64,000 bases of DNA from Rhizophagus irregularis (Eukaryota; Glomeromycota; Glomeromycetes; Glomerales; Glomeraceae): contig NC_089450.1 in NCBI RefSeq assembly GCF_026210795.1, positions 992,001 through 1,056,000 on the forward strand, given 5' to 3'. Shown here piece after piece: positions 1,703 through 48,779 of this stretch (the stretch's first letter is position 1; each line of letters starts with the position of its first letter). Position numbers and translations under genes: made by a program. A model generated the notes under the pieces. The model was not told the origin of the DNA. It saw only the letters and a list, made by a program, of their open reading frames with translations, and ran no database searches.

Positions 1703-2056
1703 CTATTCTGAAACTTTAATAAGTATTGTTGCCACTTTTATTTTTATTTCTTCTCGATGTTTAATGACTATTACTGAGAGAGACTTTTCAAGTTCATCAT
1801 CAGTCTGGCCTAAATCTTGATGGTCATAGTTTTCAGCATGAAAATTATTATTTCCTTCAGAGTCTGAATTATCAACCTCGCTCTGATTGTATTGCAAATA
1901 GTGATTAATTAGTTTTGATTTGTTAGTGTTTAAGTTGAAATCATATCCCAGCAATAATAAAACCAAATACCTTATTAGTTCTGGTACGTTTTGCCGTTTT
2001 TTCGTTGTCATCATCATAGAATCTTTTCGTGATGCCGGTGTTTGTTGATCTGGCAT
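1703..2056 (-). CDS. small hypothetical protein, 117 aa
   Basis: An ATG-started frame of 117 codons with a basic N-terminus (SRKDSMMMTTKKRQN), a hydrophobic stretch (IRYLVLLLLGYDF) and an acidic, Asn/Asp-rich middle. This bias is usual in proteins of this genome, but I recognise no domain. It could be one exon of a longer gene or a chance frame; no splice partner or neighbour supports it. Not recognised. Confidence 0.3.
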   Translation of the reverse strand: MPDQQTPASRKDSMMMTTKKRQNVPELIRYLVLLLLGYDFNLNTNKSKLINHYLQYNQSEVDNSDSEGNNNFHAENYDHQDLGQTDDELEKSLSVIVIKHREEIKIKVATILIKVSE

Positions 2057-2329
2057 ATTGTTGAATTTGTTCTATCGCCACTGTGGTAATGGTTACATGC
2101 TGATTCGCCTATGTATATAGAAGTAGGTCAAATGTAAATATCCCGGTCTAGCACGTTAGATGGTGGGAAAATTAATGATATACCTGCAATTTTAGAACTT
2201 TCGCCTTTGCCTTTTTCTCTTTTAACTTACTCCTCACCACAATACTTTGACTCTCAACTTGAAGTTTCCAAAAAACATTTACTACTGTCGACTGTTTACT
2301 TAACTACCAATGATAATATGTAAGTACAC

Positions 2330-2760
2330 GTTCTAGATTTTGTTTGATAGTCATCTCACCCTATACAAGTAAGAATAGAAGACATCCCGAACAAGCAAGC
2401 ACCCAGATTGTACATTATCTTTCGCGAGCATCATCGGTCTCAAAGTCCATGGAATATAGCTCACCAACAGACAAGCAGTCGTTCCCACTACAAGCGCGCG
2501 GGGTAGTTGGTGTACTCGTCTCCTGAACATTAGTATTTCCTGTCCAGGTTCGGACACTTCAGCATAGAATTTGCTGGTCTCATCAAGTTCTTTCTTGTAA
2601 CGATTGTATTCAGTTTCTCTTATCCGTTAAATCGCCAGCCAAAAGTCGAAAATCTAAGAAATTCTTGAGCGAAGGCTCGTCCGTGCTTTCCCAAAAGACT
2701 ACATAATCACAAGTATAAGTTATGAAATAAATATCACAAAAAAACATCGGCACAGTCTAT
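2330..2760 (-). pseudogene. unrecognised degenerate coding remnant
   Basis: This stretch has clearly higher GC than its flanks, and on the minus strand short blocks read as protein-like sequence in more than one frame (for example KNFLDFRLLAGDLTD and ETEYNRYKKELDETSKFY). No frame stays open across it, so it looks like an old broken gene or element remnant. I cannot assign it to a family. Confidence 0.3.
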
Positions 2761-2971
2761 CTTATCGCGGTACTTTACAGCGTTAAGACATTCAGGGAGA
2801 AGTTGCATTTTTTGTCTGTGTCTGACATTCAGGGAGAAAGTTTTTTTTGTCTGTCTTTTCAGCGCGACAAGATTTAAAATGATAATCAGCTGGTTAACCT
2901 GATTAACCAATCATATTATGGTGACGTATATATATCACTATTTTATTAGACATAGACTGGGCTGTAAGTTA

Positions 2972-3330
2972 TTACCGTATGCAAACAGTGTGTGAATGAT
3001 GAGGTGTTCTTCTAAAATAAACGTCCGGGTCGTTTATGATAGCTTGATCTTTCGAGGAAATAACATATCGCGCATTCGCGTTAGCTTTAAGGGTAACGTC
3101 TTCCATGATGCGGATTTCTTGTCGTTGTAAATAAAAGTTTCTGAGTCTGACAGCTTGTGCGTAACCGTAATTGTATTTGGGAATAGAGTTGACGTCGAAA
3201 CGACGTCGAATTTTATAATCGAGCAGATTGATGTTGTAGGTAATTTTGTAGTAGATACGTGGATCACCCGGTGTACCAGGCGGTCGGTAAAGGAGGTAGT
3301 TTTCTTTTTCTTGTTGATTCTGATTCCAAG
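2972..3330 (-). CDS. unrecognised ORF fragment, about 115 codons
   Basis: On the minus strand one frame stays open for roughly 115 codons to a TAA at 2974-2972. It contains protein-like segments such as PPGTPGDPRIYYKITYN, LLDYKIRRRFDVN and QAIINDPDVYFRRT. There is no ATG at its head, so it would have to be a 3' exon or a 5'-truncated remnant. Base composition is richer in GC than the surroundings, as for the remnant at 2330-2760, so the two may belong to one broken unit. Family not recognised. Confidence 0.35.
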
Positions 3331-3678
3331 TATAATATCACTGATGAAAAGTTACAATCACGTGACTTTTATCCTACCAACTTACAATTTATTACAGATT
3401 TTAAATACATAACGTAACTAATAAAATTATTAAAATTATAAGGAATTAGCCTATTATACTGGATACTTTCTTAATTAATGGAATTAATTGAAATTAATTG
3501 AATAAACAAGCAATTAATTTTTAAAAAATTGAAATTCTCAAATTAGAATAGAATAAAGGAATATTTACATAACAGATGTCTAAATCAAAAAATAAAATAT
3601 ATTAAAAAATTTTTATAAAAAAAATTTTTATAGTGCCACTATTTAAATTTTTAACCAAGTTCATTAAGAACCAATCAT

Positions 3679-6600
3679 TTATAAGAAACCGGATTCTTGT
3701 AATAAACGAGCTATCTTTTCATCTTCACGTTCCCTATTTATTTAAAATAAAAAAATTGATCAATTGATTTTTCTTTTGCAATCAAAAAATATAAAAAATA
3801 AGCAATTTACCTTGGCTCTAAAGCAAGACTCTGCTCATATAAATCCTTAACATCTTTACTTTCTTTTAAATGAAAATCTATAAACATTTGAATTTCTTGA
3901 ACAGAACTAAGATTATAAGGTACATTTTGATATTGTTTTATTTCACGTATAACATCAGCCGTTTTCATACGTTTTGAAAAGTTTATTAATTTATTGGAAC
4001 TTTTAAGAAAATCAGGATTACCATCTTCAATAAATGTAAGATCAGTCAAATATAAACCTAAATAAACAAATTAATATTATTATTATATTAAAGTAAATAA
4101 AATAAGATTTCTTTTTATTTCTTACCAAAGAATGGTACACATGGAGGATTTATACTATGTAACATCTCTCTATATTCAGCAAAATTCTTTGTTGAATTCA
4201 TAATTTTACTGAGAGTCTCAAGTGTTTGTACGGTTTTTGAATTAACCATTTCCCAAGTGCGCTTCAGACGATGAATTGGTGCAGAATACAATCCAGAAAT
4301 AATGGCCGTAAGCGAATTGAAGTTATTTAAACATCTACACTTATCGGCTATTCCAACAAAATGTTTAATATACATACATCTCTTTCTAATTTCTTTCTGA
4401 TTTAACACTGATTCGGCAACCCATCCCGTTATCTAATAAATTATTTTAGTTAGTTGAAAGGAAATATACATATTTCCATGAAATTTTATTTTACTTGCCT
4501 TATTACTGTTGAAAATCATGGCCTTAACATTTACTGCAATATTATCACCCTCACTTTGACTCCAAGCTTTACCTAGGCATTCAACAGCCTTAATATTATT
4601 ATATAGTTTACTTTCCATTAAAGTCAATTGTCTAGCAATTTCCAAGGGATCTATGTCTAAAAATTTGAGTTTCTTCATGTTCTTTGGTAAGATTGATGCC
4701 GGAGGTGCTGAAGCATTTGTTGCAATCAACTCTCTAAATTTAGCATCTTTTCGTTGATGTTGCTGCAATTAGAAAATAATTAGATTACTATTTTGGAAAA
4801 ATTATGCAATTTACGTATAAGAAATACATACTCTTTTCTCAATCACTTTTGTTAAACTCACAGAAGCAAAGGCCATATGTTCATACATGGTTGTTCTTGC
4901 AAACTCTCTCATTTTTTCTAAACAAAGTAAATCTTCTTTATCATCTATATAATAAGTTTCTAACCAAGATTTCATGATATTAAAAACTCTCAGCCTAACA
5001 GGTGTCTGTTTCTTTTCTTGCCAAACCTCTAATTCTTCGTTAGTTAAACCTTCAGGAGGTTGAATCATAAATCTTTTAACTAACATATCAAAGAAATCAT
5101 CCGTTGTACAGAAAGATCTATATGTCAACAAGAATGTTGCAATAAAATTATAATCCAATATATCATGCATAGTTAATCTTTCAACCAAAGCGGTAAGGGT
5201 TCCTCCCTTTACAGTAATTTCCTTATTAAATACTATCTCTGAAGTATCATAATCATAATTAAGGAACCAGGGTTTATCCTCTTTCAGTTTTTGCGATTGA
5301 GTGATATTAGGTGAACCATCTTCTTTCGTAACCTTAGATCGTACATTTGTTCCTACTGTATTACTTCCACTTATAACTTGAGAAGTTAAAGGATTTTCAG
5401 CTGAAGGGTGAGTATATGATCGTTGTAATTTGCCAGTAATTCTACTAGTTGAATTAGGTGGATCATCATCATTATTAAAATTACGATTATTACTACTAAT
5501 CGTATCATCATTTGTCACGACACAATTCTCAGGTACAGTTTGTAATGATTTGGAACTTGTAGTATCTAATGAAGAAATTGTGGATTGATTTTCTGCAGAG
5601 TGTTCTGTATTATTCCCATTAATTTGATCCAGAGAATTAGAATCATTTGAGATAAATTGCGAAACTTCAAAATTTTCAACAACACTAGAACGCATTTCTT
5701 GAATTTTCAAAACTAGAGATTTTGTTATAATAATAATGTCTTTAACAGACTTATCAACCACATTTGCGCAACCTATAATTTGATCCATAGCATTTAAAGG
5801 AAATAAGGGATCAGAAGCCATTTGAATACACATAACTAATCCTGCTATATTATTATACAATGATTGTTTAGAAACATTGAATTCATTTATATTAACAAAA
5901 CTAGATTCATCCAAGTCTTTCAGATTAATATTTTCAGTAATAAATAAAAATTGTCCAACTTGAGTAAGAATCTCCCTGGTTTGTGAAATAAGTTGAGGAG
6001 AAAAATAGCGTGGTGTAAAAGAATTAGGAGCATCAATTACTTTCCTAACATCATTAAGGAGCAATGTAATGGACTGAGTTACAATGCAAGAAATTTTATC
6101 CAACGAGCTAATGAGATCAGACGTTAAATGATATAATGGATTATTTGTAGAAGAAGTTGAAACACTAGTATCCTCTAGATTTATACTGGGTAATGTTGAT
6201 TTATTTCCATTTGTTTGTGTTTGTATTAAATTGTTTCCATGCCATGAACCACCGGTAGCACTTTCGATAATTTTTGGGTCAACTCTTCTAATATCAACAG
6301 TTTTTTGAGCAATTAGAATAAATCCACGAACTGCGTCTAAAACTTCATTGACATCACTTTTCATTTTTAGAGTAGCATCTGGTGGAGACCATGTACTTGC
6401 AGCTACTTTTGTAGAAAGAGTTAGCTTTGAGAGCGAAGTCATAATATTTCTATGATGATTTTTAAGATTCCTATTTTTCTTAATTGCAACTGAGTCTTTT
6501 TCAACAGTACCAGTAGCGTAAAGCATAATCCTAACATTCCCAACAATTGTACTAGTACATTCTGGATAATCCTGCCTCATGTTTTCTTGAATTGCTACAT

Positions 6601-10775: not shown

Positions 10776-11738
10776 CAGTCAACTCTCTTTATAGTCACAC
10801 ATTTGGGACAGTCCATATTTGGTGATTATAAAGAGATGTGACTATATAAAAAATTTCTTATATTAGTATATCATAATTCCGGCCAAAAATTAACATAATT
10901 TTGGCCAAAATTATACTTAAAACTTTATTGTATCGTAACTCCTCCAATATTAATCATAGAAAGATGATCTTACCGCCATTCGATTCGTCTTGATGAGACG
11001 GTTCTAATGGTATAAAATACATCGAAATCCAATTACTAGATTAATTTCCGAAATTAAAAAAATATCAATGGTTTTTGTGTAATAACTCTGCCAATATTGA
11101 TCCTAGAGAGACGATCTTACTACCATTCGATTCGTCTTGATGCGACGAATCTAATGGAATAAAATACATCGAAATCCAATCACTAGATCAATTTCCGAAA
11201 TTAAAAAATATTAAATAGTTTTTAAGTAGTAACTCCGTCAATATTGATCATAGAGAGATGAGCTTACCACCATTCGATTCGTCTTGATGAGGCGATTCCA
11301 ACGAGCTATTAATCGTCTTTTTACAATCACTAGGTACCGAGATATTTAGCAAAATGTTAAATGGCGCAGTAAACGTAAATCAAGGAATATAATAATGCCG
11401 ATGCTTAACATTTTGTTGAATAACTCATCAGCCAGTGATCGTAAAAGGATAAAACTACCACCATTCGATTCGTCTCAGTGAGACGATTCTAACAAGCTAT
11501 GGTACATCTTTGTACGATTATTAGATGCCAAGTTATTTAATATATTCTTTATATAACTGTGATTATAAACGGTTCTTTTTAATATAAGATTTTTGATGAT
11601 AGGTGTGATAGTGACTATAGATAGATTGTGACTATATAGGATAGATTTTAATAATAAAGTGTTTTGAACATTCAACTGGTGTGACTATATAGTAGAATGT
11701 GACTATAACGGGAGTGACTATAGAGGGAGTTGACTGTA
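10776..11738. mobile_element. M1: TA-flanked non-autonomous DNA element, 963 bp
   Basis: Ends are CAGTCAACTCTCTTTATAGT on the left and, on the other strand, CAGTCAACTCCCTCTATAGT on the right. Both are flanked by TA, the target duplication of Tc1/mariner-type elements. A second copy (M2) lies at 15118-40634 with many insertions inside it, which confirms these ends. There is no transposase ORF, so it is non-autonomous. The middle is a string of about 145-bp direct repeats (see 10926-11470). Confidence 0.85.
10926..11470 (+). repeat. tandem ~145-bp repeats inside M1, each with a small hairpin
   Basis: Three to four diverged units each read: TAACTC, CAATATT, a GATCTTAC-like word, then CCATTCGATTCGTCTTGATG, a complementary GACGA word, and CACTAGAT. 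The GATTCGTC...GACGAATC part forms an 8-bp stem around a 7-base loop in unit 2 and a weaker stem in the others. The third and fourth units are longer and more diverged. The same repeats appear in M2 at 28620-29060. Confidence 0.8.
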
Positions 11739-12568: not shown

Positions 12569-14887
12569 GGTTATGGGTCAAAAGACCGACAAACAAAAGA
12601 CCGATACTACATAATCCCGATCTACAAAATCGCGAAACTACAAAATTTCAACTAGGATAAAATATCGACTAGTTCAAAATCCCGAAATACAAAATCGTCT
12701 AATACAATAAATATTTTATAGATTGTAATTAATAGAATTGTTACAATTGTACAAACATATATTTACTATTATAGTTAAAGAACAAATAAATCAATATAAT
12801 TGCATAATTATTATTTATAGTATATCGTGTAAATCATTTAATGTACATACAAATTAGTTAATATTCCATGTTCTCATGTTCTAACTTGCTTAGTAAATAT
12901 AGCATATTGAAAATTCATATGAAAATTTTTTTATGGTTATGTAATTATTCTGATTAACAAATTGCGCGTTGCATATTATTATTTGACAAATTTGATTTAC
13001 GCGTAATTATAAATATTTACTTCATTTCAATAAAAGCTTAACTTTTTTTTCTAGCCAAGAAACCTATCTTAAAAATGGATGAAGTCTGTGAGATTATACA
13101 ATCACAAAAAGGAAATAATAAAATAAATGTTCGTGGTTATTTAATGATAAAAGAACGAACAAAAGGAAATACGTATTATTGGTGCTGTGAAAAAAAAAGA
13201 CTGGAGAAATATAAAGGTTGAGCAACAACAATATTTCTTGATGGTAAACATTATCTTAAAAACTTTGTTGGCTATCATCACTCACCTCAAGCTAGTAAAG
13301 TGAAAGTTGCAAAAACTGTTGCTCAAATCAAACAACAAGCACGTGAAACAAGAGACAAGCCAGTACAAATAATTCAAAATAATATCATTAATATGTCACA
13401 AGATGATCACCCTTACATGCCATCTAAAAATGCTCTTAGGACAACAATTAAACGTGTGAGAAAAGCAGAATTGCCTCCACAACCACAAAACATTGGAGAA
13501 CTTAATGTTTCAAATCCACTTTGTTTAACATTGAATGGTGATCCCTTTCTAGTCAAAGACTTGATGGTTGGTACTGATCGAATTTTATTATTTACCACAC
13601 AAATGAATATTCAACGCCTGTCTCAAGTTCAATTTTGGTTGATGGATGGTACTTTTCGAACAGTCCCAACAATATTTTGTCAACTATATACAATACACAC
13701 ACCTGTTGGTTCAACAAATTCAAGGATTCTTCCTCTCATATATGCACTAATAACAAGCAAGACAGAACAAATCTATAGATGTTTGTTTGAAGAGATAGTT
13801 GACTTTGCAGCAGAACATAATATAATCTTACAACCTTCAACCATTCTAACTGACTTTGAACAAGCATCAATTTATGCTTCTCGTTATGTATTTCCTAATG
13901 CCAGAAATAAGGGATGTTTTTTTCATTTGGGACAGTCTGGGTGGAAAAAAATTCAATCATGTGGACTTGCCATTAGATATGGCAATGATGAACAGTTTAG
14001 TTTGATGTTGAGACATTTGTTTGCCTTAGCATTTTTGCCATCACAGGAAATCCCTGATGCCTTTGATACACTAAAACTTGTAATGCCACAAGAAGCAAAT
14101 GTAGTTACTCAGTGGTTTGAAAAAAACTATGTACGTGGAAAGATACGTCGGCATCTTCGAAATGGTAGCACTACTCGGTCAGCTCCTTTATTTCCACCAA
14201 GTTTATGATCAGTATATGATTCAATGGAAACAGGTGTACCACACATACAAAATGTTGCTGAAGCTTGACATCATCGGTGGAATACATTAGTTGGGCAAAG
14301 TCATGCTGGCATTTACACAATAATAAAAGAGCTGCAAAAGGAACAACAAAATGTTGATTTTCAAATTGAATGTATTGTACGTGGTGAACAGCAACCAAAA
14401 AAAAAGTCCTTAATTGACAGAGAAAAAAGAATCATGACGATCATCAGTGATAAAGAAAACCGTTCAGTGATGGAGTAACTTCGTGGCATTGCTCATAATC
14501 TTACATTATAAGTAAATTTACAAAAATCTAGTTCTTTTATCTAGTTCTTTTATAAATTATAAATAAAATAAATGATATACAATATTTTGCGCAATTTACT
14601 TTTTTAATGTCTAAAGAATAAAAGATTTCCAAATAATTTTTACTCAATAATATATAAATAATATAAATATTCTAAATATTCTATTAAATTATTTTGCAAA
14701 AGACAGATTGAAACAAATTATTAATAGTATCTAATCTGTTGAGATTTTGAATCGTCAAAATTTTATATTTCAGGATTTTGAACTAGTTGATATTTTGTTC
14801 TAGTCGGGATTTTGTAGTTTTGCGATTTTGTAGATTGGGATTATGTGGTGTCGGGATTCTGGATTTCGCGATTTTGGACGGATCCCC
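12569..14887. mobile_element. MULE transposon, about 2.3 kb, with long inverted repeats
   Basis: The ends carry inverted repeats of over 100 bp at about 12573-12715 and 14750-14885. Shared words include TACATAATCCC, CTACAAAATCGC, AAACTACAAAAT and ACTAGTTCAAAATCC. TTTAATT lies just outside each end (12562-12568 and 14888-14894), probably part of a 9-bp duplication. It encloses a MULE transposase pseudogene on the plus strand. The outermost bases are the least certain. Confidence 0.75.
13075..14511 (+). pseudogene. FLYWCH + MULE transposase, broken by stops
   Basis: One frame from ATG 13075 to TAA 14509 encodes a Mutator-like transposase. The N-terminus is FLYWCH-like (NTYYWCCEKKR, then YHHSPQAS). 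The MULE core follows with WLMDGTFRTVP (first catalytic Asp), TILTDFEQA (second Asp) and KGCFFHLGQS, and a C-terminal QNVAEA, RWNTLVGQSHAGIY segment. The frame has four in-frame stops, at 13219 (TGA), 14206 (TGA), 14266 (TGA) and 14476 (TAA). At 14206 and 14266 relatives would be expected to have Trp, so these look like TGG to TGA changes. It lies inside its own inverted repeats (12569-14887). Confidence 0.85.
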
Positions 14888-16494: not shown

Positions 16495-19400
16495 TGTAAG
16501 AGACATCAGTATAAGTCCACGTGTGAGTCGCAGACAGGAATTTACATTTCCAACAATCAATAGCCATAAATTTCGCAACAAAGGAGTCCGGTAAAAGTTG
16601 CAAAAGAGTTGCGGAAAGAAAGTTCTCAAGACAAACAGTTTTAAGGTCCAGCAGAAGTGTTTTGAAGGTATTAATATAAAAGGACTAAATTCAGGTAAAA
16701 TATAAGGACAAGTCCATAAGTGGTCTAAAGTTTTAGGAGAGGAGTTGCACTGAGGACAGGGCCAACTCGGATCATAGATATGAGCCTTTCGTTTTTGAAG
16801 AGTTGTGAGTATTGGAAGCATATTCAATAAAATCTTGATACAGAAGACACAAAATTCAGAGCGGCCATTTCGATGGGAAATTTGTAATTGTTTATTATTA
16901 AAACAAAATTTGGTACATATACAAGCCCAATCAATATCTGAAATAGAGGAATTAAGATTGAATCTTGGTAATAAAGCACGAGTCAAAAGAGTCTTGGCAT
17001 TAAAAATTTCTCTAATGAATTTCCGGATATTCATATCCACTGGTAAAAAATTAAATTGTAAAATACAAGGAGCCAAAAGTGCAGGTGACTGAAGGGAAAG
17101 ACGCGAGTCCGTATGAGCAGCTTTCGCTAAATTATCAACGTGATTATTCAAAGAATCGTCAGCGTGAGCAGGAACCTTGATTAAAGTAACTTCCAGATTC
17201 TTTTGTAAAATAATAGCTCATACCGAAGACTATAAAAGATAGTTAGATTCTTTAAGCATTCAAGGAATGAAGGGAGCGTCCACATACGTAAACCATAAGG
17301 AAATTAATTGAGTACAATCAGTGGCGACAGTAATGTTGAAATTCCGAGGGAGGGAATCCAATCCATGCAATAAGGCAAAAATTTCAGAACGCAATGCAGA
17401 AGGAAAAAAAGAAGGAATGGTATTATAATGAAATTCAAGAATAAATCCATCAGAATCGATAGCAGTCCATACATAAGCCATCGAAGGTATCGAATAACTA
17501 GAAAAAGGAAGGAAAGAACCATCGATGTAGAGTGTAGACACCGAAGAAGGAAGTTGGATATCGGAAATCTTAGACACTTGGTTGTTCATAGGAAGTGGTT
17601 GAACCAGAGCAAAAAGATGAAATAATAATAGAGATTTGGCATAGCCTAACGAGGCGGAAAGTAAAACTGAACGAGTATCCGCATGTATATATGTATGAGG
17701 CTTCGTAGGGTAACGGATAAGATTTGATAGAGGCACATAAGAGAAGCACTTTTCAGAGAGACATTGTTTAATCAATGTTTTGGAGGTAGAGGATCGCGGA
17801 ATAGCAGAAGTACAACTTTGGTATGCAGTAAATTCGGATAATAAGTCATCGACAGATAACGCAATCCAATGTGAAATAAGAGCTTCATTTCGTGGAGCAG
17901 GATAGATAATGATCACACGGCCAACAAGGAAAGAGTTAGTATTACGATTAAAAGAAATAGCCCATTGAAGATTAAACAAATAATTTTGACTAATTAGAAA
18001 AAATAGAAGCTACAGTATAGGAATTAGGTATTCTAAATTGCGGTAAAACAAAAAAGGAAGAAGAATTAGGAATAACAACAAAATTAAATAAATAAGTAAA
18101 CCAAGCAGGCACAGATCCTTTGTTTGAAACTTGTTTAAAAAAACGTAAATCTTTCCATGAGAGAAGTCAAGAGCCATACGGAATAACCAATTGTGCAAGG
18201 AAACGAGTACAAAAATTTTTTTGAATGTTTTTCATAGAAATAAATAATTCTTTGGGTAATATAGACCGGAGTGGAATCGCCAGATGTAGATCTTTTCTCG
18301 GAGGTCAGAATAATAAAGACCACATAATATTCAATCGAGAAGAGAACAATAAAGAATTAAATAAAGAATGTGTTCGAAGAGAAAAGGTATGAGACCATGG
18401 TTCTAAATCAATAGTAGAAGGACAGGCATCACAATCTAGAAAGCCTTAGAGATAAGTAATCATATAATTGGCAAAAATTTTGTATAAAGGGTGAGAAAAA
18501 ATTCTTTGCTATGAAGCCACATGAAATGATAAAAAGCGACCAAATGCTTGTTGGATTGAAAATGGCAACAATGTGAAAAGCGCAGAAAGAGGAGTGACTG
18601 AAGTAAAACCAGCCTTCTGTCGAATAAGGGAAAGCATTGGAGAAACCATGCGATTAATGGTAGATTCAGCAAATAATGTGGTTTGTAGGCGAAATTCTAG
18701 TCTCGGAAGTAAGACAATATTATAAAGATAAGCCACATGTTGTGCCAAAAGTTTTTTAGGACTAAGTAAAGCAGCCATATCTTTGACCATAGAAGTACAT
18801 TGATCGTGAACAAAATGAGAGGAAGCCGAAAGGCAAAACTAAACACCTAAAAAATGGAAAGACTTAGATAAAGCTAACGCCTTTAAAGTAAGGGAACAAA
18901 TTGGGATTAAGGGAGATGGAAAAAAATCAAACACCATAGTTTGAGAAAATTGTTCAGAAGAAAGAAGGATATATTTAGCGAAATTTGCTTGAGTATTATT
19001 TAAAGTATAAAATTCAGCAGTAATGGAAAGGTGATCTTCAATTCCTCGTTTAGATGAAGCAATCAAAGTAGAATCATCCATAAATGTAATATGTGAAACA
19101 GGAAGATTATGTTGTTCATATTCAATCGGAGAATAATCCAATAATGCAGAGGATTTCAAAATAAAAGAATCACAAGCTTCTTGATTAAGTGTTATAAGCA
19201 AAGGATCTAAATAAATCACCCATAATAACGGGGAAATAATTTCACTCTGGTCAATACCTATTCTAACTTTGTAACCAGAAGTATCACCATAATGGGTAAG
19301 AATTTTGTTATTGCGTCTTGTAAAAAGATTAATGATAAATTTGATCAACAAAGGTGGGATATGTAAACGCATTAAAGCCAATTTAAGCATATTTAGGTCA

Positions 19401-20532
19401 ATCAAATCAAAGGCCTTTGAAATGTCTTGGGAAACAATCCATAACTCTTGGTCATCAGTTTTATCAAAGCGGCGTTGATGAATAATAACATCAAGCATTT
19501 TAATAGGAATGTTAGTGGAACCGCCAGGTAATCCAACAAAATTACCACCTTGCAATACTTGGTTATCAGCTAGGATTTTTGAAAGACGAGTTGTAACGAC
19601 CTTAACCACACATTTTTGTACAGTTTCTAATAAAGTAATAGGTCATGTATTCTTTAACTGGACGTCAAATTCATGAGGCTTGGGAATGGGATAAACAAGC
19701 GCTTCACGCCAATCGGCAGGAATATTTTCATGAATAAGGTAGGCATTGGCTAATACAAGGGACAAGTTGAAAGCTTCTCCAGTTAAATGTTTGAGCATCT
19801 CATAAGAGATCTTAGAAGGACCAGAGGCTTTGTTATTAGGCATAGACTGGATAGTAATCTTCCATTCTTCATCCAGAATAGGAGACATGACTGAGCTATA
19901 TAAAGACGAGTCAATATCAGAAATAGGAGTATATGCTCTTTGCCAACATGGAGGAAATTCATCAATAGAAGAATATTGGACTAAAGGAGGAGTAACAACC
20001 GATTGGAAATGTTTAATGGCAGCTTGTTTGATGTCTGAAGGTTCAGTAAGTAATGTGGGTTTGGAGTCAATTACAACCAAGACTCTATCAAGAACGATAG
20101 AGCGATGTTCCATCAACAGAGCTGAAGAAATAAAAGAACCTGGTGACGTAGAGAAATGCTCGTCTCTAAGAGCAGTATAATATTCAATGGAATCCACACG
20201 ATGTTGATGAAATTGCGTAGAAAGAAAGGCGGAGATCAAAGCTTTTTGTAAACACAAAAATTTGACAAAAGCAGGAAGTGGTGTTGTACTATAATCAGGT
20301 ATAGTATAATCTGTAAAAAGAGATTTCAAAAGAATCAATTGTGTAGGTAAAGAATTAATCTTTGCAAAATTTGAGCGGGATGACTAATCCTAGATGTGGT
20401 CAATTTAAACAATAATCTGTCCAAGAATTTGTTGATAGCAATAAGCATTGTAAGATCGGGAGGATATTTATGGTGATGAGTATTGAAATGGTAGAGAATC
20501 AATGGCACCACCAAGAATAGAACATTTAAGAG

Positions 20533-28526: not shown

Positions 28527-29167
28527 ATATTTGGTGATTATAAAGAGATATGACTATATAAAAAATTTCTTATATTTGTATATCATAATTCCGGCCAAAA
28601 ATTAATATAATTTTAGCCAGAATTATACTTAAAACTTTATTGTATCGTAACTTCGCCAATATTAATCATAGAGAGATGATCTTACCGCAATTCGATTCGT
28701 CTTAATGAGACGGTTCTAATGGTATAAAATACGTTGAAATCCAATCACTAGATTAATTTCTGAAATTAAAAAAATATTAATGGTTTTTGTGTAATAACTC
28801 TGCCAATATTGATTCTAGAAAGACGATCCTACTACCATTCGATTCGTCTTGATGAGACGAATCTAATGGTATAAGATGCATCGAAATCTAATCACTAGAT
28901 CAATTTCTAAAATTAAAAAATATTAAATGGTTTTTAAGTAATAACTCCGTCAATATTAATCACAGAGAAATGAGCTTACCACCATTCGATTCGTCTCGAT
29001 GAGGCGATTCCAACGAGCTATAAATCGTCATTTTACAATCACTAGGTACTGAGAAATCTAGCAAAATGTTAAATGGCGCAGTAAACGTAAATCAAGAAAT
29101 ATTATAATGCCGATGTTTAACATTTTGTTGAATAACTCGTCAGCCAGTGATAGGAAAAGGATAAAAC
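28527..29167. mobile_element. middle part of M2
   Basis: Aligns base by base with M1 from ATATTTGGTGATTATAAAGA to the GATAGGAAAAGGATAAAAC site, including three of the 145-bp internal repeats. It links the left end at 15118 with the right end at 40634. Confidence 0.85.
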
Positions 29168-34593: not shown

Positions 34594-37500
34594 ATGATGG
34601 ACAACAAAAAACACAATTTTTCTCCTCACCCTTCTCCCCTTATTAAATTTGGTCAAATAAATGTTAATGGTTTATGTTCTCCAGTTCGACAACAACATTT
34701 GCTTAATTTTTTTTTTCACTCTTCTTTTGGTGCTTTATCTATTAATGATACGCGTCTTTCCCCTTCAAATGCTAAATTTATTTTTAAAAATGAACATTCC
34801 CAACATCACTTTAAGTCCTATTGGGCTTGCTCATCTTCTTCTCGCCCTCATGATGGTGTTGGTATTTTGCTACGTAATCCTCTTCATAAGCATGTTCAAA
34901 CAATTGATCCTTGGAATGGTCGCCTTCTTAAATTAGATTTGTTTTTTCATCAAACTAAAATTTCGATTATTTCTATATATTATCCCCCTTCTGGTTCTAT
35001 TCATCAATCCATTTGTAATGATCTTATTGCTAAACTCCTTTCTTGGCTTGATTATGCCAGAAATAATAATTATTTTGTAATAATTCTGGGTGACTTTAAT
35101 ATTGATGAAGTCGCTCATTCCCATTATTCATCCAATCATTTTAAGCTTCTTCGCTTGCTTTCTTCTTGGTTTTTTACTGATCATCAAGCTCACTCTTCTA
35201 CACATGGTCCTGATCCCACCTTTTTTCATGATAATGGATCTTCTAGACTGGATTATATCTGGTCTTCACCTGGTTTTCCTGCCCCTGGTCTTTTTTCACA
35301 AGTGGTTACTTGTTCGAATCTCCTTGATCGTCCTTTTACAGATCACAAAGTTCTTACAACTGTTTTTGACTTCAGCTCATGTCTGGCTATTTTAGCCAAA
35401 TCTCGTCTTAAACAAAAAAAGGAAATGCGTACTATTTTTTCTTACGCTTCCACTTCAGTTGAACAATGGAATAATTTCACCACTGAAGTAGATGATTCTC
35501 TTGGAGTTTATTTAGATAGACAATATCAATCTAATTTTGATTTCTCCTCTCTTTCTCTTGATCGTATGTGGCATGCATTGAAAGCTGCCATAATCAGTGC
35601 TGCAATTGCAACATTACCCTTTCAAAAAGTTTCCAATACACACCGACATTCGTACTCTCCTGAATTAACTAAACTTATTGCTATTAACAAGTTTTTAGAT
35701 CGATTTTTATATCGCCTTACTACTCGTCGTTCTAATCGGCCTACTCAGATTGCGCAAATGACTGCTGCTTTGCCTTCCCATCTTGAAAATTTAGCATCCT
35801 TACTTCCTGATTACTCAGTTTCTACCTATTCTACAACCCCTGCATCTGTATTTAAATCATTTTTACGATCACAGAAGAATTTAGTTTCTGCCTTTCTATC
35901 TACTAAATTCGCCCAACATCTCGCGGACTCTGTAGAATACTATACCGCATTACGTGACGAACACTTTTCGAACTTGCTCGGTACCTTTATAGACTCTGCT
36001 CTATCAGTTGAAAAACGTTCGATTATTCTTGATCGCGTCCTGGTTGTCCTGGACTCAACTCCTACTTTATTAACGGATCCTTCGGACATTAAACAAGCTG
36101 CTATTTCTCATTTTCAGTCAATTGTTTCTCCTCCGTTGGTCTGCTACTCTTCCATCACTTTATTTCCCGCCCGATGGCAACAAGCTTACACTCCTCTTGC
36201 TAATGTGTCTGCTTCATTATATGATCCTGTTTTGGTACCTATTTCCCTACAAGAATGGTCTGCTGTGATTTCTTCCATGCCTAATAACAAAGCTTTCGGC
36301 CCTTCAAAAATTTCTTATGAGATGATTAAACATCTGTCCGGTGAAGCCTTGGATTTCTTTTACTTGCTAATACCTGCCTTTCCCGCGGTGATATTCCTGC
36401 TGACTGGCGTGAAGCTGTGGTTTATCATATTCCTAAACCTCACAACTTTGATGCCCAACTCAAGAACACTCGACCTATTACTCTTCTGGAAACGGTTCGC
36501 AAATGTGTAGTTAAGGTCGTCACTAATCGTCTTTCCAACATCCTTGCTGAAAATAAAGTTCTTCAAGGAGGTAACTTTGCGGGCCTACCTGGTGGTTCTA
36601 CTGATGTCCCTATCAAAATGCTTGATGCGATTATTCATCAACAAAAACATGACTCTACTGATGATCAGAAACTATGGATCGTTTCTCAAGATATCTCTAA
36701 AGCTTTTGATTCTATGGATTTAAATATGCTTAAATTAGCTTTAGATAGATTACATATCCCTGCACTTTTAGTGCGATTTATTTTGAATCTTTTTACATGA
36801 CGAAATAATAAGATAATTACTTGTCATGGCGATACAGCTGCTTATAGAGTACGTGTGGGTATCGATCAAGGAGAAATCATTTCTCCTCTTCTTTGGGTTA
36901 TTTATTTGGATCCCTTACTTACTGTTTTGAATCAAGAAGCACAAGATCCTTTTATTTTAAAATCTTCAACTCTTTTAAATTATTCTCCACTTGAATTTGA
37001 ACAACATTCCTTACCAATTTCACATTTAACGTTTATAGATGACTCTACACTTATTGCTTCTTCAAAATCTGGAATAGAAGATCGTCTTTCCATCACTGCT
37101 GAATTTTATACTTTAAATAATGTTCAAGCCAATTCAGCAAAATATGTTCTTCTTTCATCCTCTTCGCCTTCTTCGAAGATTACTTTTGAACTTTCACCTT
37201 CTTTCTTAGTTTCCAATACCTTTCTTTCCCTTTCTTCTTTACCCCTCAATACTTCCTTTCGCTTTTTAGGCGTTTGGTTTTCTTTGTCTGCCTCTTCTGA
37301 TTTTGTTCTCAAACAAGCGCGCTCCATGGTTAAAGATATGGCTGCTCTCCTGGGACCGAAGAAATTATTAGCACAACATGTGGCCTATCTCTATAATGCT
37401 GTCCTTCTTCCGCGATTGGAATTCCGTCTTCAAACTACCCTTTTCTCTGAAAGTACTATTCAATCGATAGTCAAGCCTATATTTTCAGTACTTCGAAGAA

Positions 37501-41102: not shown

Positions 41103-42689
41103 TTAATATGTTCTTGCTCGGCAGATTATGCTCCTTTTTGCCGGCTTGCTTTGTTTTTCAACTAGGAATAGCTTGAGGGTCCAAATTTTTACATGAATCA
41201 TAGGACCACTTTTAATCTTAATTGTTGGATCTAAATCACAGTTCATGTCATATAGAAAGGAGACAAGCCTAAGTACGGATTTCATCTTTGCCACTTTATA
41301 ATGTTCTGCAAGTCTATTTAATGCAGTACATAATTGTACGTCACCGTTTTAGTAGTCTTCTTTGATTTCTTCTAAGAAATCAATAAATGTGGAAGTATTA
41401 TCGACTTTTTCAATTGAATCTCTAGTGTAAAAGTGCTTAAAATTTAGGATTTTCACAATACAATGGCAAATTATCAAGAAAAAAATTTACAAACCTAAAT
41501 TCAACAGACGCGTTAGATGCATTGCTACCTGATTTTTTTATTGTTATTTGTAGACTTTCTTGATCTTGTGGAGTAAATTCTGCGTGTAATGATGCGTAAA
41601 AAGAATTATCTTTTGCGGTATAATCTAGTAAAGAAATACATAACAAGATAAGAATAGAAAATACTGCGAAAAATATATATAATTTTTTAAAGGAGAAAAA
41701 TTATACGTTACCCAGTGCAATATAAGCATAAAGTATACGATCATTGGAAGTTAAAGACGGCAGAAAATTGAATGTTGATATATGAAATTTAACTAAAACT
41801 GCGCCCTGATGTTTGCAAGGAGTACCAGACGCGCTAATTGGACATGTACAAGTACCGATTTCACTATTCACAGTGTAGAAAAGATTAGCATTATTTACAC
41901 TTTTTACATAGAATTCATGTTCCACATTACTTTTTTGAATAGTATCTATATTCACGGTGTCCCAGCCAGGACATAAAAAATGTTTTGCTATTCGCAAATG
42001 TCCCGTGTGTCTATGTACCAAACTAAGCAATTGAAGTGCATAGAATCTCTCCATAGTCGTTATAACAAACTGGAAAACCTGCACACAGTTGTACGCTTGT
42101 GATCTTGCAAACACTATATCTTTAAGTATGCCGAAGCTTCTCTCAATATAGTTGTTTGTGTTGTTTTTGCGCATATGTAGTTCAGAACGGAAAGAGAAAG
42201 TCCAAAAATAACGATGTTCCCATAAGAGCTCGAAATGTTTGCGTAGTTGAGAATAATGATGATAAAATTGTTGTTTGAATTCATCGTAATGAGTATACAT
42301 GTCTAAGCCAGTTTGTGCATAAAGTATTTTTTCATCTTTGCCATAATGGTCACCTGGTCTTCTTTATTAATGTGATGTTTCAAATTATAGAGCCATCTCC
42401 AAAATGCCTGTAAAACGTGGAATGAGCACAAAAGACGGATCTCTTATATATTTCAGTTGAATAAATTGATAATTTAGTTAAATTAAATATATACAAATTA
42501 ATTTAAAAAAAATTTCAATTTGAATTCTTTATTTTCTGGCCAATATAATTCTAGTACATTACGTTCAGCACTTGAATCGTCAGTTAGAATAACCTTTAGA
42601 CCAAGTAGCGGTCCACGTCCAAAGAAGGCATGTTGTGGACACAGGTCGAAGGGGCGCCATTGTCTAAAATTCAAAAAATGCAAATTCCC

Positions 42690-43680
42690 CATTTTCCTGG
42701 AAAATGGTGGGAAATTGTGGAAAATGCTGCATTACGCTGAGCAATTTTTTGGAATAGCATTATTACAACATTATCCGATTTAGCAAATCTTATGAAATTT
42801 TGGGAAAATGCTACATTATATCTCAAATGTAACATTTTTGTAACATTTCGTAACATTGTTATAACATTGTCATTAAAATCAAATTTTGCTTTTTTTTTGT
42901 TAAATGTTCCAATTTTCTTGCAAATGGTGCATTTTTATGAAAATTTCACATTTTACCTCAAATGTAATAACATTTAATAAAATTGTTATAACATTGTCAA
43001 TTAAAATCAAATTTTGCTTTTTTTTTGTCAAATGTTCCAATTTTCTTGCAAATGGTGCATTTTTATGAAAATGCCACATTTTATCTTCAATGTGATATCA
43101 TTGTAACAACATTTCATAAAATTGTTATAACATTGTCAATTAAATTCAAATTTTGACAAATATTCCGATTTTCTTGCAAATGGTGTATTTTTTTATGAAA
43201 ATTCTATATTTTCTGTCAAATGTTGCATATTTTCAGCAAATTTTACGTTTTTTTGGTCAAAATGTTTCATTTTCGTCAGAATGTTAAGATTTTACATTTT
43301 TTTTTTTGGAAAATGCTCAATAATATAGCATTACACTGGAAAATGTAGCATTTCACCAAATTACACTAAAAAGTATCACAATTATCACATTTTTTGGAAA
43401 ATTCCACATTACATTAAATTATACTAAAAAATGTAGCACTATACTAGATTATGTGGCATTGCACTAAAAAATACCACAATTACACTAGACAATGTAGCAT
43501 TACACTAAAAAGTACCACAATTATCATTTTTTTTTTAAAAAATTTCGCGTTATACTGGAAAATGTAACATTATGCTAGAAAATGTGGAATTGCACTAAAA
43601 AACACAAAAAAAAATACTACAATTACATTGGATAACGTAGCATTACACTTAATTACATTAAAAATTGATGATAATTTTTA
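42690..43680 (+). repeat. left repeat arm of the 5.08-kb element
   Basis: About 1 kb of diverged copies of short words: GGAAAATG, CAAATGTAACATT, TTGTTATAACATTGTCAATT, TTCTTGCAAATGGTGCATTT and later CTAGAAAATGTAGCATTACA. Periods vary, so it is a scrambled satellite and not a clean tandem repeat. Several words resemble the complement of words in the right arm (TTGTGG...TGGTG against CACCACAATTT). Confidence 0.7.
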
Positions 43681-43794
43681 TTTATTTAATTACGTACATT
43701 ATTAAATTTATAATATTTATATTTTAAACGCATTATTTAACATTAAACACATTGTTAATATAACACGATGTGTTGTGATGTAATTTAATACTAA

Positions 43795-44138
43795 ACCTTA
43801 CTACTGAAGACTCCCTCTTTTTGTCACTATAAACAGGCGGAGGGAGCAGCAATGGCTCTCTCCCTATAGGTACTTTATGACCTCTACCTGTTTACAGAGG
43901 AGAGGCTTTTCGTAAAGTATTAGTTAATAGATATATATATATGTATATATAAGCATATATATACATCTATTTAAAATTATTAAAATAAAAAAAAAAATTC
44001 CGGGGCGGGGGAAAGCCCCTATTTATATAAAATTATATATCACATGCGTCACGTGATATTACTTAATAATTACCGCAGCTTCAGCTGCGGTATAACGAAA
44101 AAAAAAATTAAGCTTTTTTTAGCAAAAGCTTAATTTTT
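43795..44138 (+). other. cluster of a fold-back and three hairpins
   Basis: A fold-back at about 43826-43900 pairs TAAACAGG with CCTGTTTA and GGAGGGAG with CTCTCCC. Three hairpins follow: GGGGC...GCCCC near 44002-44019; TACCGCAGC-TTCA-GCTGCGGTA at 44071-44092 (9-bp perfect stem, 4-base loop); and AAAAAAATTAAGCTTTT against its complement at 44101-44138 (17-bp stem). No ORF. They lie just before the pyrimidine tract. Confidence 0.75.
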
Positions 44139-44395
44139 TTTTCTCACGTCCTCTTTCTTTCTTCCCTTTCCCCTTTCCCTTTCGTTCCCTTTCCCTTTCC
44201 CTTTCGTTTTCCCCCTCCCTTTCGTTCCATTTCCCCTTTCCCTTTCTCCTCCTCCCTTTTCGTTTCATTTCCCCCTTTTCTCCCCTTCATTTTCCCTTTC
44301 CCTTTCGTTCTCTTCCTCCCTTTTCGTTTCATTTCCCTTCCCTTCGCCCTTTTTCTCTCTCTTTCTCTCCCCTTCCTCTTTCCCTTCCCAGAAAA
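44138..44395 (+). repeat. pyrimidine tract (CCCTTT / CTTTCGTTC words)
   Basis: About 260 bp of C/T with scattered CG in the words CCCTTTCC and CTTTCGTTCC. Positions 44286-44311 are a perfect 26-base inverted match to 46018-46043 in the purine tract beyond the array. Confidence 0.85.
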
Positions 44396-44408
44396 TTCCA
44401 ACGAAATG

Positions 44409-46495
44409 GTAAGTTTTGAAGCGTTCGCTTCGAAACTTTTAATATATTTTTTTTAATTTCTTTTAGGAAACGTTTCTAACGCTTCCTATACTCTCTTTTT
44501 TTTTAGATCTCGATATTCGATTTCAGAAATTTAGGAAATTAAGGGTAAGTTTCGAAGCGAGTTCGCTTGTTTTTTTTTTAATTTCTTTAGGAAACGTATC
44601 TAACGTTTCTTATTTTTTTTTGTGTAGGTCCTTCGGCATGCTTCTTTGGGATTCGAAATGGTAAGTTTCAAAGCATATGCTTCGAAACTTTTTGAAAATT
44701 TTTAATTTCTTTAGGAAACTTTTCTAACGTTTCCTTTCTTTCTTTTTTTGTGTAGGTCTTTCGGTATTCGACTTTGGGAAGCAAGGAACCGAAAGGGTAA
44801 GTTTCGAAGCGTTTCGCTTCGAAACTTTTTAAAAAAAATTATTTTTTTTTTAATTTTTGTAAGGAAACGTTTCTAACGTTTCCTATTTTTTTTTTGTAGA
44901 GATTTTTCGATATTTGACTTTAGAAGGCGAATCGGTAAGTTTCAAAGCGTGTTGTTGTACGCTTCGAAACTTTTAAGAAAAAAATTTTTTCTTTTTTTTG
45001 TAAGGAAACGTTTCTAAGTTTCCTTTTTCTTTTTGTAGGAACGCCGGACGTTTGAATGATGAGTTCGAAATGAACCGGTAAGTTTCGCAACATTGTGTTG
45101 CGAAACTTTATTTTTATTTATTTCTTTTTAAGAAACGTTAACTAACGTTTCTTTATTTTACTTTTTGTAGGTTCCGGACGTTAGGATGATGCTAAGTTTC
45201 GCAATGTTACATTGCGAAACTTAATTTTTATTTTTTTTATTATAAGAAACGTTTATATTAACGTTTCTTTTTTACTTTTTGTAAGTTCTGGACATTAGAA
45301 TGATGGAAACAAACCGGTAAGTTTCGCAATGTTACATTGCGATACTTAATTTTTTATTTTTTTTTATTAAAAGAAACGTTAACTAACGTTTCTTTCCTTC
45401 TTTTTGTAGGTTCCGGACGTTTGGATGAAATGACCCAGTGAGTTTTGCAATGAATCGTTGCGAAACTTAATTTATTGTTTTTTTTTAAAGAAATGATATT
45501 AAATGTTTCTTTCCTTTACTTTTTGTAGGAACGCCGGAACGAATTCACGAACCGGACTTTGGGTGGAAGGTAATAAAGGGAATTTTGTTTTTGTTTATAT
45601 TTTTTTCTTTATTTCTTAACAAAACGTTAACTAACGTTTCAATTTTTTTTATAGATCACCTTAACATCCACTTCTGCCAAATTGGAACTAAAATGGTTAA
45701 GAAGTTCAAAAAGAAAGTGCTTGGCAAAGGTGAATGAATTGAAGAACCCATTCAAGTAATTGGAAGAGACAAAGGAAACTCCGGGCATTTGGTGGGGTGT
45801 TCTTTTATTATATAACGAAACATTATTTAAATTTCGTTTATTTTTTGTTTTTTTATAGGTTAAAGGAATGAAAGGAAAAGGTGAGAATGAAAGAAAAGAG
45901 AAAGATGAGAACGAAAGGGAAAGGTGAAAAACGAAAGGGGAATGTGAAAAATGAAAGGGGAAGGTGAAAAATGTAAAGGAAAAGAGAAAACGAAAGAGAA
46001 GACGAAAGGGAAGGGTAAGAACGAAAGGGAAAGGGAAAATGAAAGGAAATATTTCGAAGGTATACTTCGAAATTTTTTTATTTTATTTTTCAACGAAGTG
46101 TTTATTAACGCTTCATTTTTTTTTTTTAGGTTCAGCGGCTATTGGACAGACCGGAATTCAATATTTTGAAGGTATACTTCGAAATATTTTTTATTTTTAT
46201 TTTTTTCAACGAAACGGTTATTAATGTTTCGTTTTTTTTTCTTTTTTAGGTTCAGCAGCTCATTGGACGTATGGAATTCAACATTTCGAAGGTATGTAAC
46301 TTCAAAATGTTTCTTTAATTTAATTTTTTTCACGAAACATAAATTAATGTTTCATTTTTTTTCTTTTTTAGGTTCAGCGGCTTATTGGACATGCATATGG
46401 AATTCAACATTTCGAAGGTATATAACTTCGAAATGTTTCTTTAATTTATTTTTTTTACGAAACGTATATTAATGTTTTGTTTGTTTTTTTTTTAG
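44409..46495 (+). repeat. tandem array of ~15 intron-like units with paired hairpins
   Basis: Unit boundaries (donor GT to acceptor AG): 44409-44506, 44545-44627, 44661-44755, 44797-44899, 44935-45038, 45078-45170, a degenerate unit at about 45191-45284, 45317-45409, 45438-45528, 45570-45654, one with an unclear donor ending 45858, 46060-46129, 46172-46249, 46292-46371, 46418-46495. Most are 70-104 bp. Typical unit: GTAAGTTTCGAAGCG, loop, CGCTTCGAAACTT (hairpin A), an A/T spacer, AGGAAACGTTTCTAACGTTTCCT-like hairpin B with the branch-type CTAAC in its 3' arm, a T-rich run, TTTTGTAG. Mini-exons of 28-46 bp between them are repeats too. Orientation is plus, opposite to the MULE gene. In the first part the joined mini-exons hit stops, so a long protein is unlikely. 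Confidence 0.85.
45859..46059 (+). repeat. purine tract (GAAAGG / GAACGAAAGGG words)
   Basis: About 200 bp of A/G rich in GAAAGGAAAAGG and GAACGAAAGGGAAAGG. It behaves as one long exon between two intron-like units. It is complementary to the pyrimidine tract at 44138-44395, with a 26-base perfect match at 46018-46043. Confidence 0.85.
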
Positions 46496-46619
46496 GTTTT
46501 CTATTTTGGCACTGGTGCAGATTATCCATAGATTATCGGATATCTGATAAATATAGATTATCGTTAAATAATAATAATTGTGCATTTATTAATAAATAAA
46601 ATTATAATAGATTATAAAT

Positions 46620-47640
46620 CAGTGTTTTAAATTGTCATGGCGTTTACACTAAATTGTTTAAAATTATTACTAAATTTCGCTCAATTGCCCGAAAATTTCA
46701 CTTAATTATCTGAAATTATTGCAAAATTTCACTAAATTATCTTCGAAAATGTTGCATTTATATCGTTTACACTCAATTGTCCAAAATCGGTAAAACATTT
46801 TCACTCAATTGTCCGAAATTATCCTAAATTTCACTAAATTATTCAAAAATCTAGCTAACATTTACCAAAAAAATGCAAAATTCACCACAATTTTCCACAA
46901 TTTGTATTACGTTTGCACAACATTGCTGAAAAATTTACCTAAATTTTCAACAATTTACATAATATTACTAAAAATACACTACAATTTACCACTATTTGCA
47001 TTACGTTTGCATAACATTACTAAAAATTTAACTAAATTTACCATAATTTGCACTTCGTTTGCATAGCATTACTAAAAATTTAACTAAATTCACCACAATT
47101 TACATTACGTTTACATATAATTACTAAAAATTTAACTAAATTCACCACAATTTGCACTTTGTTTACATAACATTACTAAAAATTTAACTAAATTCACCAC
47201 AATTTGCACTTCGTTTGCATAGCATTACTAAAAATTTAACTAAATTCACCACAATTTACATTACGTTTACATATAATTACTAAAAATTTAACTAAATTCA
47301 CCACAATTTGCACTTTGTTTACATAACATTACTAAAAATTTAACTAAATTCACCACAATTTGCACTTCGTTTGCATAAAATTACTAAAAATTTGCCTAAA
47401 ATTCACTACAATTTACATTACGTTTGCATAAAATTACTAAAAATTTAACTAAATTCACCACAATTTACACTTCGTTTGCATAACATTACTAAAAATTTGC
47501 CTAAAATTTCCCACAATTTAATGATAATTTACTGAAAAATTTCTCAACATTTGAATTAGGAATTCTGTAGGAATTCCGCCATTTTGACAAAATTTGCCAA
47601 ATTGTAAGTCCTCCATTATCCCAAAATTGTAACACAATTT
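46620..47640 (+). repeat. right arm: 52-bp tandem repeat with a 156-bp higher order
   Basis: From about 46900 the unit CTAAAAATTTAACTAAATTC-ACCACAATTT-GCAYTWCGTTTRCATAR is repeated about every 52 bp. Between 47050 and 47361 three slightly different units form a 156-bp block that occurs twice in a row almost unchanged (GCACTTCG at 47050, 47206 and 47362). Before 46900 the repeats are looser (AAATTTCACTAAATT). No ORF. Confidence 0.85.
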
Positions 47641-48779
47641 ACCTCAATTTACCGGGATAATTCTCAATTTGCCAGAAAAATTCCAGGCAAATTTTGTGAC
47701 AATGACATCTGTTCGACCTGTGTGGAAGAATCGATTTTAGTAGGTTAAGTGCCTTTTCTAGTGTGATTTCAAGCTCATCTGAGATTATGAACAATCCAAG
47801 AGGGAGTGCTCCGACCGCACAACTGGTACAAAGAAGTGTAATCGACGTATTTAAAGGTTCGAATGATGCTGAAACATCTACATAACATATTTCACCAGAT
47901 TGTGGGATTTTTTCGTGCACGCGACTCATTAATCCAGTTACCACACATAGAATAAGTGCCTTTTCCGTACGTGAATCGTATTCTTGAAGGATTGCTTTTC
48001 CACGACCTGAGCTGTTATATTCGTTTACAATATCTACGAGACATCTAAATATTAAACTACCATTACAATCACCAAGTGAAGTTTCTCGATATTTTTGAAA
48101 TAACTTGGCAATATAATCGTAGTCAGGATTATTTGCCCGATCTGCAAGTAGAACTAATAGATCCTGTTCATCCATAGAACTAAGGTACAACTCATCTTCA
48201 TGGACATTTATCGCCGATGCAGGCGAATATCCATCTTTGAAAAGTTGCAAGAACTTCTCGCAGAATTTTTCATTGACACGACGAAAGCTTAACGATTCTG
48301 CCGAATTAATTACATGATTGTGCGTAAACTTTATATTAACCTCTAGGAGATGATTAAGTTCAACGCGCCAACTCTCTAACCGAAGATGAATTGTTGCTTT
48401 GCAACTGGTATTTCGTAATCGAAGCAAATTTTGGCGTTTAACTTCTCGACTTCCTTGCTTTTTCTTCACTGTATCGCTATGTATACAATGTCTAGTCTCG
48501 CAAAAAAGAACATATTTTCCCTTGATTTCATAACGCTTGGTTTCCAGCATCATTGTTTTTGACCAGAATTGAAACGTCACAAACCATTTGGATGCCTTCT
48601 CTTTATCATTGACATCTACAAATACGTCTAGTTCAAATTGTGGTATCACAAAGTCCTCAGCAGTTTGATACGATGGTAGTTCGTTAAAGTTTATAATTGA
48701 ATATGTGTAGTGCTGGGGAAGTATCGATTTTAAAACATTGGGAAGAGAATTCCAAGAAAAGAACTACAAATTTAATTAA

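Follow-up and report, generated by a model that had tools for sequence, protein, structure and literature searches.

Why should fifteen intron-like units stand in a row inside a non-autonomous DNA transposon? The question is raised by positions 44409–46495 (forward strand) of the window, a 64,000-nt stretch of Rhizophagus irregularis DNA, where the original prediction had placed a tandem array of about fifteen such units. Parsing of the window copy returned 15 units within the same limits. The first parser recognized 12 of them by GT donor, branch word and YAG acceptor; units 5, 7 and 11, which are weaker, came from a looser parser only, so that the expected succession of donor, branch word, T-run and TAG stands for most of the array and is weak in these three. 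The expected intron length of 70–104 nt applies to every unit save unit 7 (108 nt as parsed) and unit 11 (129 nt). The spacers, foreseen as exons of 28–46 bp, span 18–46 nt with two exceptions, one of 75 nt (45655–45729) and a purine-rich one of 201 nt (45859–46059), and these two long spacers divide the array into two blocks.

Units 1–10, the first block, mostly read GTAAGT...CTAAC...TAG and are separated by exons of approximately 18–41 nt. They occupy 44409–44506 (unit 1), 44545–44627 (unit 2), 44661–44755 (unit 3), 44797–44899 (unit 4), 44935–45038 (unit 5, with the branch word CTAAG), 45078–45170 (unit 6), 45191–45298 as parsed (unit 7), 45317–45409 (unit 8), 45438–45528 (unit 9, GTGAGT donor) and 45570–45654 (unit 10, GTAATA donor). 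Unit 7 is damaged: its GT donor is lost, AAG stands at the usual acceptor place near 45283, where the unit may end, and the parser took a later TAG; in another copy of the array, L010, both GT and TAG are present. The weak unit 11 (45730–45858) is followed by the 201-nt spacer, and beyond it the second block comprises unit 12 (46060–46129, with a donor hairpin that spans the exon–intron border), unit 13 (46172–46249), unit 14 (46292–46371) and unit 15 (46418–46495). Donors in this block are GTATAC, GTATGT or GTATAT, branch words are TTAAC or TTAAT, and exons measure 42–46 nt. Overall, the window copy is decayed, with units 5, 7 and 11 imperfect.

The sequence on either side of the array contains candidate transcription signals, all on the forward strand. 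A TATA-like word (TATATAA, 44024–44030) lies upstream and may serve as a promoter element, and a pyrimidine tract of 90% C+T (44121–44400), possibly a 5' leader or promoter tract, directly precedes the first donor; comparable tracts were seen by eye ahead of the first donor in L010, L021 and L051. Past the last acceptor, an AATAAA word (46591–46596) is a putative polyadenylation signal. The purine-rich spacer is also partly complementary to the pyrimidine tract, with 87% complementarity over 45 nt between 44283–44327 and 46002–46046. Pairing of these segments within one RNA could loop out units 1–11 and favor skipping or a circular product.

The intron-like unit is not a product of chance. Across the 146.7 Mb of the genome (32 contigs), the exact pattern from donor hairpin to CTAAC had 252 matches (130 and 122 on the two strands) and its reversed control none on either strand. 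The branch palindrome GGAAACGTTNCTAACGTTTCC, allowing up to 3 mismatches, matched 1,032 times (518+514), compared with 17 (8+9) for the control. We then picked 296 palindromes in 21 arrays without any splice criterion, and 108 of them had YTAAY, a T-rich run with YAG at its end, and a donor upstream; the same combination occurred in 0/296 mirrored and 0/296 reverse-complemented sequences, 0/12 palindromes of block-shuffled arrays and 4/121 upstream flanks, in a test that addresses the order of the parts and not the choice of places, as loci and array limits came from earlier parser steps. RNA folding of six of the 15 window introns gave z values of −2.2 (unit 2), −7.8 (unit 4), −6.3 (unit 6), −5.8 (unit 8) and, including 10 nt of exon, −4.7 (unit 13) and −5.1 (unit 15).

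To characterize the units beyond the window, we called introns in 22 sequences without any hairpin term in the parser. Given that a listed donor and a YAG were required, the 260 introns obtained had mainly GTAAGT (185) or GTGAGT (34) donors, CTAAC as the branch word in 150 cases, and TAG (251) or CAG (9) acceptors. Their median length was 92, and the distance from branch to acceptor was 22–28 nt in 215 of 260. Donor hairpins with a weight of at least 8 were present in 206 of the 260 introns compared with 17 in shuffled windows, and branch hairpins of this weight in 188 compared with 4; the branch A sits in the stem in 133 of these 188. Among the arms listed, stems mostly have about 7–16 pairs. 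Donor hairpins are not a general feature, since in the L049 and L050 arrays, which were discovered through their branch palindrome and retain it, no donor hairpin was evident by eye.

Both hairpins covary. The alignment consisted of 43 rows, namely one window intron and 42 introns less than 86% alike out of 146 candidates, and includes at least three poorly aligned rows. RNAalifold returned no consensus pairs on this gappy intron alignment; the structure was therefore named by hand from the window unit and then counted, a procedure that somewhat favors it. Under this structure, 88.2% of cells pair compared with 81.9 ± 0.6 after shuffling, and the two hairpins contain 71 double-change cells compared with 27.4 ± 5.2. 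The covariation score was 0.210, against 0.114 ± 0.007 for shuffled and 0.059–0.085 for slid versions; the relatedness of rows inflates the shuffle test, and the slid controls keep this relatedness but favor a structure named from one of the rows. In a swap test, all six inner donor pairs formed in 17% of introns with their own partner arm and in 3% with that of another intron, and the corresponding values for the outer branch pairs were 26% and 9%. Among 189 distinct introns, the donor helix (1,382 Watson–Crick and 83 G-U of 1,583 cells) pairs better than the outer branch helix (920 Watson–Crick and 100 G-U of 1,318 cells). In a weak test of RNA-level selection, G-U cells outnumbered A-C cells in both helices, with 83 against 52 at the donor and 100 against 90 at the branch, and whether pairing would be selected at the RNA rather than the DNA level is less clear.

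The array is carried by a complete transposon of 5,083 bp (42640–47722, with the array on its forward strand). Its ends read CACAGGTCGAA ... TTCGACCTGTG, with a short terminal inverted repeat starting in CAC (CACAG ends), CACAGGTCGAA, at both termini, and it is flanked by a 4-bp target duplication, TGGA (42636–42639 and 47723–47726). Subterminal repeats lie on the left (42804–43660, with periods of about 128 bp and of 20/41 bp) and on the right (46954–47519, about 11 copies with a 52-bp period). Open frames contained entirely within it all fall short of 100 residues, and we therefore call the element non-autonomous. It interrupts a transposase-like gene on the opposite strand, part of which corresponds to an open reading frame at 47639–48649 whose end, up to 47722, falls within the element; a later part, apparently of the same gene, encodes a SWIM zinc finger at 41701–42300 (PF04434, E 1.4e-4). 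When the flanks are joined without the element, one open frame of 392 residues runs across the junction. The 47639–48649 part had no Pfam match, and the words at the junction resemble a MULE transposase. Ends, flanks and frames thus agree with the prediction that the array lies in a transposon without a transposase, antisense to the gene it interrupts. The window is rich in other transposons, with MULE transposase, reverse transcriptase and endonuclease-type domains at 13300–14208, 18839–19609 and 34594–36510. It also contains two closely similar tandem repeats of a 147-bp unit (10936–11295 and 28648–29007, 2.4 copies each), the second of which directly precedes a long frame at 29202.

A genome-wide scan for the termini returned 66 left ends as exact matches to the extended word, with one in the control, and 82 right ends within 2 mismatches, with five in the control. 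Of the left ends, 54 have a right-end partner 4.0–9.5 kb away. Among the 11 fetched copies with both exact ends, the window element included, duplications as judged by eye were 3 bp in 10, the exception being the 4 bp of the window. The 100 branch-palindrome matches listed fall, in our own grouping, into 61 loci. Paired elements hold 32 of these, an end lies within 6 kb of a further 8, and the other 21 have neither. By position, at least 8 of the 66 left ends had a tnp2 match within 9.5 kb inward, compared with a mean of 0.6 and a maximum of 4 in 2000 random draws; the figure is a lower bound from 150 scored candidates out of 605, with the lengths of 21 contigs approximated. For seven of these eight ends the match was 2.2–3.7 kb in, five are in paired elements of 8.2–9.1 kb, and the C25 match, 9.3 kb inward, falls beyond its own element. 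Because of the CACAG ends, the 3-bp duplications and the larger same-ended elements whose positions overlap tnp2 matches, the window element is classified, on sequence evidence, as a non-autonomous CACTA/tnp2 element. In the parts of larger elements inspected, namely eight 3.4-kb tnp2 loci (L037–L044) and 1.5 kb of L052, no run of several intron units was present. In L016 (7049–7095), the first element is followed after five bases by a further CACAGGTCGAA end, backed by different sequence, a layout that adjacent insertion of such elements would produce.

Related arrays are carried by at least two further end types. Three loci (L045, L047 and L048) contain a 3,580-bp element with CACTGGTCRAATGA ends and an AGG duplication, which holds 15 parsed introns, a sixteenth parsed one lying outside. 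This element is antisense within an apparent tnp2 gene, with a PF02992 match on one side (E 1.3e-12) and no significant Pfam match on the other. The CACTGGTCRAATGA end word matched 110 times genome-wide (control 1). Among the 100 of these 110 matches that were listed, all 10 array places of the CACTGGTCRAATGA group had such an end within 1.2 kb, 16 of 19 convergent end pairs spanned 3.1–3.9 kb, and such an end lay within 6 kb of 14 of the 22 best tnp2 places, the last being a raw count. In the second type, arrays lie between CATCAGCAAG... ends in L013, L015, L022 and L024, with matching 2-bp flanks by eye in three of the four, and L012 has a right end of this type only. Arrays with 42-nt exons were found in L035 and L036; in L035 the parsed units exceed 20, extend over about 8.7 kb and are interrupted by another transposon; the outer ends of their carriers were not found in the sequence read.

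Some other features of these loci belong to different elements. At approximately 1961–5714 of the reverse complement of L035, a transposon with CATATGGGCT ends and long frames sits inside one intron unit; we considered the gene it brings as a component of the array and rejected this in favor of a nested insertion of another element. A second-family end word near one tnp2 locus was attributed to chance, since it does not continue as the end of that family. L052 comes from an element of 7.8 kb that has CACAGGTC ends and whose tnp2 match is broken; at 173–550 it also holds a frame of Arg-Asp-Ser repeats resembling an RS domain beside ordinary short introns.

The arrays tested have no detectable reading frame, the blocks with 42-nt exons and L013 aside. 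A first, poorer parse compared with letter-shuffled exons had suggested coding frames in 6 of 21 loci (L027, 145 codons; L010, 125; L013, 121; L014, 114; L019, 104; the window, 98), a result we discarded as the excess vanished once the missed introns were spliced out. In the corrected test, the longest run of closely spaced units was spliced throughout in 13 of the 21 parsed loci (units 1–10 only for the window), and in all 13 the longest open frame was no better than in exon-order shuffles, being reached by 141–500 of 500; for L013, whose exons stay open in nearly every order, the test is uninformative. Stop codons interrupt the common 31-nt exon in two frames and the 38-nt exon in a single frame; neither length is divisible by three, and the two exons differ in number from one array copy to another. 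All three frames are open in the 42-nt exon typed for the second block and in the one typed for the L035 family.

These data bear on several alternative explanations. A protein-coding micro-exon gene, such as one for an effector-like repeat protein, would account for the open 42-nt exons and for the first-pass frames that stood well above the letter-shuffled null; those frames contained unspliced units, however, none of the 13 corrected arrays, the same six included, exceeded its exon-order shuffles, and the 31- and 38-nt exons neither keep phase nor occur in constant number, which makes this reading highly improbable. If the palindromes acted at the DNA level, serving a transposase or host protein as binding or cruciform sites, the splice-like words would be a by-product. 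Their great density (296 compared with 12 in block-shuffled arrays) and the weakness of the G-U bias expected from selection on RNA are in line with such a role, whereas the fixed order of donor, branch, T-run and TAG on one strand (0/296 in reverse complement) and the tight spacing of branch and acceptor are not predicted by it, and we regard it as very unlikely. Mirtron-like introns acting as a hairpin source of small RNAs, or stable intronic RNAs comparable to those of snoRNA host genes, would fit the covarying structure within the introns and the spacer-like exons. The stems are nevertheless short, and an Rfam scan of 42500–48500 gave three matches with E up to 0.1, none at the gathering score and none a snoRNA; we assign this explanation a low probability. 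It is likewise unlikely that the arrays are a neutral satellite of old intron-like origin that rides in a transposon and is no longer spliced. Tandem repeats within transposons are common and the window copy is decayed, but two carrier types keep the same architecture with different sequences and compensating changes.

The original prediction had also offered introner-type repeats, in which each unit would be a mobile intron inserting alone into genes and the arrays would be nurseries or pile-ups. The units are indeed near-repeats with palindromes and working-looking splice signals, fungal introner-like elements are described as structured or with inverted repeats (PMC8469720), and several exact donor-hairpin-to-CTAAC matches stand alone, by position, in the genome list. 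On the other side, the branch-palindrome places that were read are tandem arrays: the 20 ten-kb loci fetched for such matches yielded parsed runs of 7–18 units, and three of three seemingly single matches turned out to be arrays on reading. No lone intron between clean coding exons occurred in the loci read, a small sample drawn by the branch palindrome, and the mobile boundaries that we observed belong to the carrier and not to the unit. The introner reading is so far not supported and seems quite unlikely. Taking an absence of lone copies as the mark of a chance satellite, as had been proposed, is too strict, since architecture, covariation and copy number already argue against chance.

Of the two options originally put forward, the sequence is best explained by the other, a transcript built for repeated splicing. 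We propose that the array is probably a non-coding Pol II transcription unit, made mostly of short spliceosomal introns and borne as cargo by non-autonomous CACTA (tnp2) transposons. The 15-unit array and the carrier analysis support tandem amplification of intron units in a transposon lacking a transposase. A typical unit would comprise an exon of about 20–45 nt followed by an intron of 70–105 nt with a donor hairpin, a branch-word hairpin, a T-run and TAG. Transcription would start from the TATA-like word and pyrimidine tract, each intron unit would be spliced out, and polyadenylation would take place near AATAAA at 46591. Tandem duplication of exon–intron units may make the arrays grow and shrink, and they may spread through tnp2 that full elements supply in trans to move the carrier. 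The introns, and not the exons, appear to be kept by selection. Least certain of all is the mechanism that we propose, in which local hairpins may keep each donor close to its own branch site, with many near-identical units then removed singly and not skipped, and dense splicing might mark the RNA as a proper transcript and help the element escape RNA-directed silencing. Some hairpin properties speak against this reading: pairing of part of GTAAGT in a donor hairpin could hinder U1, most strong branch hairpins enclose the branch A in their stem, and neither hairpin is universal. In searches for exon–exon junctions, no spliced retrocopy was recognized: a first search gave 17 matches, all at 2 mismatches (control 6), of which the nine placed in context lie inside 42-nt exons of the arrays L031/L036 and L035, and a second gave one match at 3 mismatches (control 2).

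A broader and more tentative interpretation is that these arrays are selfish intron-array genes, non-coding units in DNA transposons in which replication and selection would act on the intron, with its RNA hairpins pairing each donor and branch site, and hundreds of units would be dispersed through one genome. Splicing itself, and not a product, would then be their function, for example in evading RNA-directed silencing or in sequestering the spliceosome like a sponge.

Comparison with known systems sets these arrays apart in several respects. The window element shares CACAG/CACTG ends, a 3-bp duplication, subterminal repeats and larger tnp2-overlapping relatives with non-autonomous CACTA (EnSpm/CMC, tnp2) elements, and differs from them in its cargo, a tandem array of intron units; no such case is known to us. 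A partial literature search by title and abstract opening returned no arrays of this kind, and we do not claim their absence from print. Known introners are, to our knowledge, single introns at gene positions. Introners and fungal introner-like elements are likewise repeated, structured, spliceosome-type introns, some with marks of DNA transposition (PMC9860276, PMC8469720), whereas the units here are in tandem inside a larger transposon. In PMC9860276, one passage names Pezizomycotina as the fungi concerned, and the main text contains no "Rhizophagus", "Glomero" or "tandem". The symmetrical stwintrons of Hypoxylaceae (PMC8469720) similarly combine inverted-repeat structure with proliferation of fungal introns, but have terminal repeats of 45–55 nt in place of the two separate local hairpins, at donor and branch, found here.

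Among other genes with many small exons, snoRNA host genes such as GAS5/UHG share numerous short non-coding exons and conserved introns with the arrays, and in those hosts the introns are the product. The array here lacks a snoRNA in the Rfam scan, its tandem introns are near-identical, and it is transposon-borne. Schistosome MEGs and aphid bicycle genes also have many tiny exons and short introns, yet they encode proteins, while the arrays tested contain no frame beyond exon-order shuffles.

If the units are spliced, they would show that an ordinary DNA transposon can spread spliceosomal introns that have multiplied in tandem. Introns could be gained and non-coding genes born by this route, of which we know no description. 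Transcripts with many near-identical introns and covarying structures would also provide a natural test bed for the steering of splice-site pairing by hairpins, as well as a test of whether splicing shields transposons from silencing.
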